Positions 7,001 through 9,639 of a stretch of 34,554 nt of DNA are shown here, in pieces. The first letter of the stretch is position 1. Each line of letters opens with the position of its first letter. This stretch comes from Actinomycetes bacterium. Its GTDB lineage: Bacteria > Actinomycetota > Actinomycetes > JAHEKZ01. A program made the translations under genes and the position numbers. The notes under the pieces were generated by a model. It was not told where the DNA came from, did no database searches, and saw only the letters and a program-made list of their open reading frames with translations. The stretch is taken from the NCBI GenBank assembly GCA_024644435.1, contig JAHEKZ010000006.1, positions 1 to 34,554 of the forward strand, read 5' to 3'.

Positions 7001-7962
7001 GCCGGTCGCCGGCGGCCGACCCGTCCGCACTCGTCGCTCAGGCCAAGGACGGCGAACCCCGGGCGGTGGCACGGCTGATTTCGCTCATCGAAGACCAGTC
7101 GCCGGTTCTGGGCCAGGTGGCCCGCGAGCTGGCGCCCCACACCGGTCAGGCTCATGTCGTCGGCATCACCGGCGCACCCGGCGTCGGGAAGTCGACCACG
7201 ACGTCGGCCCTGGTGACCGCGCTCCGTGCGTCCGGTCGTCGGGTGGGTGTCCTGGCGGTCGACCCGTCGTCACCCTTCACCGGGGGAGCGCTGCTCGGCG
7301 ACCGCGTCCGCATGCAAGAGCATGCGACCGACCCAGGGGTGTTCATCCGCTCGATGGCGACGCGGGGTCATCTCGGTGGGCTCGCGGCGGCTGCCCCTCA
7401 GGCAGTTCGGGTGCTCGACGCGGCGCGCTGTGACGTGGTCCTGATCGAAACCGTCGGCGTGGGGCAGTCCGAGGTCGAGGTGGCCGGGCTGGCCGACACC
7501 ACGCTGGTACTGCTGGCGCCCGGGATGGGCGACGCGATCCAGGCGGCGAAGGCTGGGATTCTCGAGATCGGCAACGTCTACTGCGTCAACAAGGCCGATC
7601 GCGATGGCGCCGACGTCACCGCCCGTGAGCTGCGCACGATGCTGGCGATCGGGCGCAAGGTCGAGGGCGAGGACGCACCCCAGTGGCGCCCCCCGATCCT
7701 GCAGACCGTCGCGTCGCGCGGTGAGGGGATCGCCGAGCTGCTCGAGCAGATCGACCGCCATCGAGAGTTCCTCGTCGAGCACGACGAGCTCGAGGCCCGT
7801 CGCCGGCTACGTGCCAGGGCAGAGATCGAAGCCCTGGTCGTCGCCGACGTCCGGACCCGCCTGGCACACGGCGCTGATGCCGCAGCGTTGGACCGCCTTG
7901 CCGGCGACGTGGTCTCTGGCGCGACCGACCCCTACACCGCAGCGGCCACCCTCACCCCGTAA
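6997..7962 (+). CDS. meaB: MeaB/ArgK-type GTPase, chaperone of a B12-dependent mutase; probable CTG start
   Basis: A G3E-family P-loop GTPase that loads or protects the adenosylcobalamin of acyl-CoA mutases. It has Walker [10 protein letters not shown], the D in [10 protein letters not shown], the switch-region [12 protein letters not shown] and the guanine-specificity motif NKAD. The only standard start is GTG 7066 (298 residues), but the frame stays open upstream back to a stop at 6970. The upstream peptide ([21 protein letters not shown]) looks like the normal N-terminal helix of MeaB proteins. The frame's only plausible initiator there is CTG 6997, which overlaps the thiolase stop as CTGA, like the GTGA junctions elsewhere in this window. 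I therefore give the longer gene (321 residues); the start is inferred. The likely client is the mutase at 9746. Confidence 0.85.
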
Positions 7963-7979
7963 CGCACACCACCGTTTCA

Positions 7980-8012
7980 GGGCCATGTCACACCGGTTCG
8001 GTCATTTCGAAC
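7980..8012 (+). repeat. left inverted repeat of the cassette
   Basis: This 33-base sequence reads rightward from GGGCCATGTCACACC and ends in CGAAC. It is perfectly repeated in reverse orientation at 9139-9171. It contains an internal 5-bp hairpin (GTTCG, seven-base loop, CGAAC) but no following T-run. It starts 17 bases after the meaB stop. Confidence 0.9.
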
Positions 8013-8055
8013 AAACCGCGTCACCATCCTCGACCGATTCACCTCGTCGGCACTC

Positions 8056-9066
8056 TCAAGGACTGCGACGCGGTACGCCCCTGTGTGAGCCGCGCTCGCC
8101 AGTCACCACGCGTACGTCCGGAGGAGTGCGCCCGCCATTGGCGGCGCGAGTAGCACGAATGGCGGCGATGACCGAAGCGGGGTTGTCTCTGATGGTCTCC
8201 GGCAGGATTCGTTCAGCCAGAATCCGGTGACGGTTGTAGACGCCGTGGCGGCTCCAGGTTGCAGCGAAGTTGTCAGCTCTCTTGTAGTGGTGCTCGCGGG
8301 AGTCGACTTCGAGAGCGAGGCCAATGTCGGCGTAGTAGCCATCTGGTTCGGCGATGAACTCACCGTCGGACGTCTCAAGCCTGCAGTTCCATGCCGGCTC
8401 CGGGAGGTTGCTCGCGATCACGATGTCGCGGAGCCCTGCCTCAGGGACCGAGCGAACGCCGCTGAGGGCATCGCCAAGGACGTCCCTCATGACCGCCGTC
8501 CACTGCCTCTGCCCGTGGCGGATCTCTTCGGCGAGGTCGTCGATCTCAAGCATTCGGCGCTGGACTGCTTCAAGGGTTATGGCGCGGATGGCATGGCGGG
8601 ACGTATGACGTCGACCAACGTCGAAGACAGCACGCGGCAAAGGCGCAACCGGGTAGCCCCTGACAGTTCGTGCCTGCGGAAGCCTCTGTGTGCGTTCGAT
8701 AATGACGAACCCCGACGACCTCACTTGGCGGGCGGGTGGCACCAGGATGTGGACAGGCAGGGCATCCACGGGCAGTGGAAGGTTTCGAAGGCCGAGTAGG
8801 TGTGTTCCAAGTCCTCCGGTCAGCACCGCATCTGGGCCGGCGTACAGGAGACCGGCGCTGAGTCGTTCGTCGACTGTAGGCGTGCCCCGGTGAAGGAGGT
8901 AGGTGCCGGGCAACACACGTTGCCACCGTCCGCCGGTGCGAGTCCAGCTGCTGATCGTCGCCTTCGAAACTCCAAGAGCAACCAGCTGGGCGTGGCTGAT
9001 GGTGCCGCCTTGGGCGTTGGCGGCGTCGTGGACTGCGTTGATCTCGAACAGACGGGGTCGGGCCAT
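8056..9066 (-). CDS. AbiEi-like winged helix plus Vsr/DUF559-like nuclease domain protein
   Basis: A 336-residue protein. Residues about 10-60 resemble the winged-helix 'AbiEi antitoxin' N-terminal domain (SHAQLVALGVSKATISSW, then WQRVLPGTYLLH). Residues about 225-300 look like the Vsr/DUF559 restriction-endonuclease fold: Asp in AEPDGYY, the strand LALEVDSREHH and a following charged helix, that is a PD...ExD pattern. Such proteins are common, multicopy and functionally uncharacterised in actinobacteria; no AbiEii toxin partner is adjacent, so a toxin-antitoxin role is not supported. The start is ATG 9066 without a clear ribosome-binding site. The gene is lower in G+C than its neighbours and is enclosed by the 33-bp inverted repeats, suggesting acquisition as a unit. 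Confidence 0.75.
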   Translation of the reverse strand: MARPRLFEINAVHDAANAQGGTISHAQLVALGVSKATISSWTRTGGRWQRVLPGTYLLHRGTPTVDERLSAGLLYAGPDAVLTGGLGTHLLGLRNLPLPVDALPVHILVPPARQVRSSGFVIIERTQRLPQARTVRGYPVAPLPRAVFDVGRRHTSRHAIRAITLEAVQRRMLEIDDLAEEIRHGQRQWTAVMRDVLGDALSGVRSVPEAGLRDIVIASNLPEPAWNCRLETSDGEFIAEPDGYYADIGLALEVDSREHHYKRADNFAATWSRHGVYNRHRILAERILPETIRDNPASVIAAIRATRAANGGRTPPDVRVVTGERGSHRGVPRRSP

Positions 9067-9138
9067 GGGTCAGGGTGGCGCGACCGACCCGGTGCCGCCA
9101 CCGGCTTCGCCCTGTTGTGGACAGATGGTGCGGCGTCA

Positions 9139-9171
9139 GTTCGAAATGACCGAACCGGTGTGACATGGCCC
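9139..9171 (-). repeat. right inverted repeat of the cassette
   Basis: This is the reverse-complement copy of 7980-8012 with 33 of 33 bases matching. Its outer end is 9 bases from the stop of the rrf2-type gene, so both host genes read out of their 3' ends into the same sequence. It lies upstream of the cassette gene, whose promoter must be in the 72 bases between 9067 and 9138 or within this repeat. Confidence 0.9.
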
Positions 9172-9180
9172 CAACAGGGG

Positions 9181-9639
9181 TTACGACCAGGCGGCGGTGT
9201 CTTGAGTGAGGGCGGTCACCGCTGATGGCAGGGTGCCGCTGGCGATGTCTTCGAGCGTGACGTGGTCGAGGACGCCGCGGAGGGCGGCGCGGGTGGCGAC
9301 CCAGACCTCACGAAGGTGCTCGGCCGCGCCGTCGTAGTCGGCATTCTCGGGACGGCCACCACGCACGTCGGCGAGCGGGCCGTCGAGGGCACGGACGACG
9401 TCAGCCACGGTGATCTGCGACGCGGGTCTGGCGAGCCGGTAGCCGCCTTCGGCTCCTCGCTGGCTGGCGATGATGCCGGCCTGCCGCAGCTGGCGCAGGA
9501 TGCCTTCGAGGAAGCGTGCCGGAATGGCCTGCTCGGACGCGAGGTGGTCGCCCTTGATCAGCGTGCCCGCATCGCCGGACTCCTGTGCGATCACCAGCAG
9601 CGCCCGCATCGCGTAGTCGACCTTGGCGGACACATGCAT
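9181..9639 (-). CDS. Rrf2-family transcriptional regulator without cysteines
   Basis: A 152-residue DNA-binding protein of the Rrf2 family (VSAKVDYAMRALLVIA at the N-terminus, winged-helix segment IPARFLEGILRQLRQAGII, wing RGAEGGYRLARP, then ITVADVVRALDGP). The protein contains no Cys at all, so it cannot bind the Fe-S cluster used by IscR, NsrR or RirA; it belongs functionally with cluster-free members such as CymR. The start ATG 9639 begins the conserved domain; longer in-frame versions lack homology. It diverges from the mutase gene over 106 bases and may control it, but no operator was identified. Confidence 0.88.
   Translation of the reverse strand: MHVSAKVDYAMRALLVIAQESGDAGTLIKGDHLASEQAIPARFLEGILRQLRQAGIIASQRGAEGGYRLARPASQITVADVVRALDGPLADVRGGRPENADYDGAAEHLREVWVATRAALRGVLDHVTLEDIASGTLPSAVTALTQDTAAWS

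Follow-up and report, generated by a model that had tools for sequence, protein, structure and literature searches.

Among the described systems closest to the locus analyzed here are the REPtrons, in which REP or REPIN elements are associated with a RAYT. A resident gene lies between two inverted copies of an extragenic, dispersed palindrome; the repeats are lineage-specific and form REPIN-like inverted pairs, and inheritance is vertical (PMC2817692, PMC3116915, PMC8049555). RAYT genes were recognized through this arrangement, in which a dispersed palindrome flanks a single gene as two inverted copies (PMC2817692), and RAYTs are considered to be domesticated and vertically inherited (PMC8049555). 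The RAYT enzyme is a Y1 HUH transposase, and the REPtron repeats carry a GTAG tag and are present in hundreds of copies.

Other palindrome families have been reported without a dedicated enzyme, among them the CGTC-tagged repeats, which are intergenic and dispersed, and for which neither a known RAYT nor any other dedicated gene has been described (PMC3733652). With respect to the protein discussed below, the characterized AbiEi proteins of the AbiE type IV toxin-antitoxin systems recognize 23-bp inverted repeats, present in pairs, in a cognate-specific manner (PMC7319586). The Vsr/MTES_1575/DUF559 nucleases have the pattern E...D...E-x-D-S...H. MITEs share their ends with DDE transposons, and MITE-type palindromes (ERIC and Correia) are intergenic and non-coding.

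The meaB-rrf2 locus

In the 34,554-nt stretch of actinobacterial DNA that was analyzed (the window), a single gene, encoding the protein P0001, is positioned between two 33-nt arms (Table 1). The arms are 100% complementary and spaced by 1126 nt; the chance expectation for a perfect inverted repeat of at least 33 bases anywhere in the window is ~4e-10. As meaB and rrf2 are convergent and the enclosed gene has the same direction as rrf2, each arm is located directly behind the stop codon of the flanking gene. The G+C content of the segment 7980-9171 is 64.3% relative to 68.0% for the window, which places it among the lowest 0.3% of 1192-nt windows, and GC3 is 0.71 in the enclosed gene vs 0.84 in its neighbors. 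Hence, the perfect repeats around one gene, the distances of 17 and 9 bases to the two stop codons and the reduced G+C that the original prediction described are all real features of this locus.

Table 1. Features of the meaB-rrf2 locus (positions refer to the window)
Feature	Position	Strand	Remarks
Left arm	7980..8012	+	33-nt head of the dispersed palindrome; 17 nt past the meaB stop
Hairpin GGTTCG-GTCATTT-CGAAC	7995-8012		within the left arm
Right arm	9139..9171	-	identical 33-nt head, inverse; 9 nt past the rrf2 stop, 72 nt upstream of the start of the enclosed gene
Extended half-element (C-rich lead, head, degenerate inner tail)	7966..8042	+	70.1 bits with covariance model R1, made from alignment A1, which itself contains both half-elements of the window
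Extended half-element	9109..9185	-	76.7 bits with the same model R1
Cognate gene (P0001), AbiEi-type winged helix and C-terminal Vsr/MTES_1575/DUF559-like nuclease domain	8056..9066	-	336 aa
AbiEi-like part, residues 9-190	8497..9042	-	PADLOC PDLC02249, PDLC02228
Vsr/EDxHD-like nuclease part, ~residues 203-310	8137..8460	-	alignment of homologs; MTES_1575 in 6/29
meaB, flanking gene	7066..7962	+	neighbor conserved in 4/4 genus genomes
rrf2-type regulator gene, flanking gene	9181..9639	-	neighbor conserved in 4/4 genus genomes

The P0001 protein

Residues 9-185 of P0001 match a PADLOC AbiEi model (2.4e-15), and all homologs that were aligned (29/29) also match a model of this type. The C-terminal part is below the Pfam cut-offs in P0001 itself, and among the homologs MTES_1575 is matched in 6 of 29 (8e-5 or weaker) and DUF559 in one. 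The originally proposed combination of an AbiEi-like N-terminal and a Vsr/DUF559-like C-terminal part is thus upheld in its broad lines, the nuclease domain being recognized in some of the homologs. Searches of NCBIfam with P0001, and of PDB profiles for a solved relative, gave no match, and an AlphaFold2 model built from three sequences (pLDDT 30) was not used.

The pattern E...D...E-x-D-S...H is conserved in the alignment of the homologs, and the conserved positions in the nuclease part of P0001 are S206, E209, D242, E/Q253-x-D255 and H260. Across the 29 homologs, D242 shows no variation, and E209 and H260 are conserved in 90% or more, which we take to be as expected of a Vsr-like nuclease on comparison with the EDxHD fold. 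As judged from the alignment, the conserved residues would have catalytic roles. In L140, L144, L148 and L172, all of them repeat-bounded copies, Q replaces E253 beside the conserved D-S. Hence, catalysis may not be universal in the family, and it may be altered in these homologs. No AbiEii nucleotidyltransferase, the expected toxin partner of an AbiEi protein, is encoded beside the gene; the neighbors are meaB and rrf2 in the four genus genomes and glyS and dusB for many homologs.

The dispersed palindrome family of the genus

The arms at meaB and rrf2 are two half-copies of a dispersed palindrome family. When up to three mismatches are allowed, ten places in the own genome carry the 33-mer, and the arms are accordingly not the private ends of a cassette, as first thought. 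With the covariance model, the own genome gave 36 matches and two congeners gave 41 and 32, counts in which some palindromes are scored on both strands, and the fourth genus genome (G003) gave none. The family is found at ~15-25 sites per genome in three genus genomes, mostly right behind stop codons, and the element positions are largely common to the congeners. A complete element is a palindrome of ~124 bp composed of two inverted 62-nt halves, and as RNA, full elements fold more favorably than shuffled sequences by 7 to 10 s.d. (z from -7 to -10). The head (GGGCCATGTCACACCGGTTCGGTCATTTCGAAC) carries neither a GTAG nor a CGTC tag, and since it is nearly invariant, the genus alignment holds zero compensatory changes. 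No Rfam match was obtained. Among 84,980 species genomes (from which the window's own genome was perhaps left out), the repeat pattern is restricted to the genus, in two MAGs, and it is absent from viral contigs. The orientation of the loop GTCATTT varies between the genus copies. At L026:1498-1546 and L027:1480-1550, the elements have collapsed to one near-perfect ~50-nt hairpin without the inner spacer.

In the three genomes, 92 halves could be assigned to a position relative to genes, and 76 of these lie behind a same-strand stop codon, at a median distance of ~14 nt. The 50 loci for which both neighbors were called are 28 convergent, 20 tandem and 2 divergent gaps, to be compared with 34, 193 and 34, respectively, among 261 baseline gaps. 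This distribution bears on the possibility that P0001 is an orphan AbiEi-type repressor or architectural protein, that the palindromes are its binding sites, and that the nuclease-like domain is inactive or otherwise used and copies nothing. The promoters of AbiEi antitoxins do contain inverted repeats to which these proteins bind (PMC7319586), the arm 72 nt upstream of the gene start is a plausible autoregulatory site, and the Q found in place of E253 in some homologs would fit an inactive domain. However, the copies are mostly found behind stop codons, with divergent promoters at only 2 of 50 loci, and neither the full 124-bp palindromes nor the copy downstream of the gene is explained by a binding site. 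The conservation of D242, E209 and H260 also argues against an idle nuclease domain, and we consider this alternative unlikely.

Gene and repeats within the genus

The gene is present at the same meaB/rrf2 site in 4/4 genus genomes; repeats at this locus in relatives lacking the gene, which the original prediction had named as evidence against itself, were not seen within the genus. Moreover, dN/dS of the gene within the genus is 0.09-0.14, close to that of meaB. Such purifying selection at conserved loci indicates that the gene is resident rather than hopping. In G003, the ortholog (~70% identity) at the meaB/rrf2 site is bounded by a different repeat, GGGTGCAACG-N3-CGTTGCGTTC, which is itself dispersed at ten places in that genome. 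Of the seven G003 sites with usable neighbors, six have an element at the orthologous position in the other species. Replacement of the head in situ left no signal in a comparison of inner tails (17.0 at orthologous sites vs 16.1 at random sites), a test that was possibly underpowered.

G003 carries a second gene between glyS and dusB, with its own repeat family (20 rows). Genomes G000 and G002 lack this gene at the site and have none of G003's second family. In G000, the empty glyS-dusB site contains a palindrome that does not belong to a dispersed family. G001 also lacks a gene at glyS-dusB, yet has 8 rows of G003's second family; these are possibly relics of a lost gene. Two of the G001 copies bound a 160-aa gene (L232:1507-2166), and no cognate gene was found in this genome.

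It was originally suggested that the nuclease moves the whole repeat-bounded cassette, in a TnsA-like manner. The perfect arms around one gene and the lower G+C would be in keeping with an active two-ended transposon of this kind, and so would the finding of homologs at several distinct loci (meaB-rrf2, glyS-dusB and others), which implies that relocation happened at some time. Nevertheless, each genus genome has a single copy of the gene, at a shared site and vertically inherited, and no second copy of the whole cassette was found. Likewise, there is no direct repeat at the outer flanks of the arms that would represent a target-site duplication, and no DDE partner gene was seen adjoining the cassette. 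What is scattered in these genomes is the gene-less palindrome, not a gene-bearing unit. With the dN/dS values and the glyS-dusB locus shared by homologs, these data speak against a moving cassette, which we regard as the least probable of the readings considered here and most unlikely.

Homologs in other actinobacterial families

Homologs were searched for in 395 genomes of the class, and 70 loci were examined. A flanking inverted repeat of at least 32 bits was found at 31 of the 70 loci vs 2 of 400 mismatched flank pairs. Among the control genes the figure is 0 of 230; six of the initial 236 reached at least 32 bits, four of which are homologs of the P0001 gene, while the other two, in stretches picked for repeat copies ~1 kb apart, were set apart. 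In other families, homologs that share 33-43% identity lie between unrelated inverted repeats of 25-70 bp, and the arm sequences are wholly different between lineages. The upstream arm is usually 60-160 nt ahead of the start, and the downstream arm 0-50 nt past the stop. Thus, the idea that gene and repeats belong together is borne out: the association recurs in many families with unrelated repeats, far above the controls.

The repeats that flank the homologs are also dispersed. When 15 arms were concatenated and used as query against their 15 genomes, the gene-flanking repeat was dispersed in its own genome in 15/15 cases (11-58 matching rows each), and among the matches listed each arm segment matched its own genome only. 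The copies inspected in eight of the 15 genomes are intergenic, near gene ends and frequently in inverted pairs. Of 12 cases in a second set of arms, which included those of second paralogs in the same genomes, eight were dispersed. Each gene has a family of its own: G030, G266 and G288 have two genes each, with two different repeat families. In G288, two genes unrelated to P0001 (L211:5163-6260 and L212:6368-7207) are also bounded by inverted copies of the G288 repeat 0.8-1 kb apart, which is either a coincidence in a genome rich in repeats or the result of passenger capture. These genes, together with the family in G001 for which no gene was found, indicate that families can outlive or lack their gene.

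The remaining 39 of the 70 homologs are below 32 bits, and whole clades are without flanking inverted repeats. The gene at other loci without repeats, an observation that the original prediction had considered damaging, was therefore made in part, in clades other than that of P0001. On the tree, the flanking-repeat trait is clustered but patchy (14 changes vs 22.8 when shuffled). One clade (L179, L184, L193, L194, L196, L201 and L209), from genomes of 6-10 Mb, has a shared syntenic neighbor and no flanking inverted repeats, and is possibly a repeat-free, fully domesticated branch. The glyS-dusB locus is common to more than a dozen homologs from many actinobacterial families and is an ancestral home of the gene family. 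Its occupants are L135-L141, L145, L146, L149, L152, L159, L171, L206 and L210, and the junction is empty in G000-G002.

The association across families is relevant to a further explanation, in which the repeats are ordinary 3'-end elements of meaB and rrf2 (terminators or mRNA stabilizers), homogenized within each genome, and the gene is a bystander. The bias to stop-codon-proximal and convergent gaps (28/50 loci vs 34/261 gaps), the stable hairpins and the orthologous positions of six of seven usable G003 sites agree with this explanation. It predicts no tie to one gene family, however, and does not account for the finding that in many families the homologs, at loci unrelated to each other, have dispersed repeats of their own on both sides, a feature not shared by the control genes. 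In addition, hairpins are present in the region 7800-9300 without a T tract, giving no match to an intrinsic terminator (a G+C-rich hairpin followed by a T run). As the main explanation, the bystander 3'-end element is rejected on the grounds of the cross-family association, and overall we judge this reading to be very unlikely.

Proposed model: a resident gene and its cognate palindromes

We conclude that the protein is the cognate partner of its palindromes. The explanation that we favor, and hold to be probable, is that of a resident (domesticated) gene accompanied by cognate dispersed palindromes, which its protein binds and acts on. In this model, the AbiEi-type winged helix would bind the lineage-specific palindrome and the Vsr-like PD-(D/E)XK domain would act on the bound palindrome. 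The gene-less ~124-bp palindromes, which occupy harmless gaps behind stop codons, would be non-autonomous offspring or targets of the protein, and the gene itself keeps its position, flanked by two half-copies. As the likeliest course of events, palindromes would be nicked or cut and then repaired or copied from one of the other copies (by homing or gene conversion), which would keep the family uniform and let it spread slowly. Binding, cutting and copying, and their role, are our inferences.

Comparison with the REPtrons reveals the same organization, a resident gene between inverted copies of an extragenic palindrome, with lineage-specific repeats, REPIN-like inverted pairs and vertical inheritance. 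The enzyme differs: an AbiEi-type winged helix with a Vsr/PD-(D/E)XK nuclease replaces the Y1 HUH transposase. The palindromes are long, lack the GTAG tag in the genus head and are present in tens of copies. Moreover, Y1_Tnp (PF01797, RAYT) was matched in 0/4 genus genomes and 0/15 others, while the positive-control genomes gave matches. The defining REPtron enzyme is thus missing and the P0001 system is not classed as a REPtron; spread driven by a RAYT is rejected on the absence of Y1_Tnp from the 19 genomes searched. We give even odds to the reading that a REP/RAYT-like system has evolved independently for a second time and is widespread in Actinomycetota. In this reading, the AbiEi-winged-helix/PD-(D/E)XK proteins would be dedicated to the processing of repeats and would copy or convert their cognate palindromes across the chromosome, with such rapid co-divergence of enzyme and repeat that the repeats differ from genus to genus.

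The other systems resemble the P0001 system in part. The CGTC-tagged repeats are similarly dispersed between genes without a known RAYT, but here a dedicated gene is bounded by the repeat. P0001 shares residues 9-190 with AbiEi, but it has an extra C-terminal nuclease-like domain and no AbiEii neighbor, and its repeats are found genome-wide instead of in one promoter. It has the conserved pattern of the Vsr/MTES_1575/DUF559 nucleases; the differences are that it scores below the cut-offs, carries an AbiEi-type part in the same polypeptide and is associated with a repeat family. The elements are palindromic, intergenic and non-coding (~124 bp here), like the MITE-type palindromes, and the gene between matching ends is a nuclease gene.

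Implications

A link between AbiEi/DUF559 proteins and dispersed palindromes was not found in the open-access literature that was searched. Within this literature the arrangement of gene and repeats appears to be undescribed, as had been supposed for the element as a whole. Dispersed bacterial palindromes are an old puzzle, and the HUH-type RAYT is the only dedicated enzyme that we found described. Here, an unrelated nuclease-fold protein has the same genomic signature across many actinobacterial families. With a new class of enzyme, the origin and persistence of such palindromes become directly testable, and the numerous orphan "AbiEi/DUF559" genes gain a candidate role. The family may also yield nucleases that are sequence-specific and whose targets can be deduced from the genome that encodes them. 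Collectively, these data suggest that an enzyme and a family of small DNA palindromes, selfish-looking in character, are partners in an association that had not been described before.
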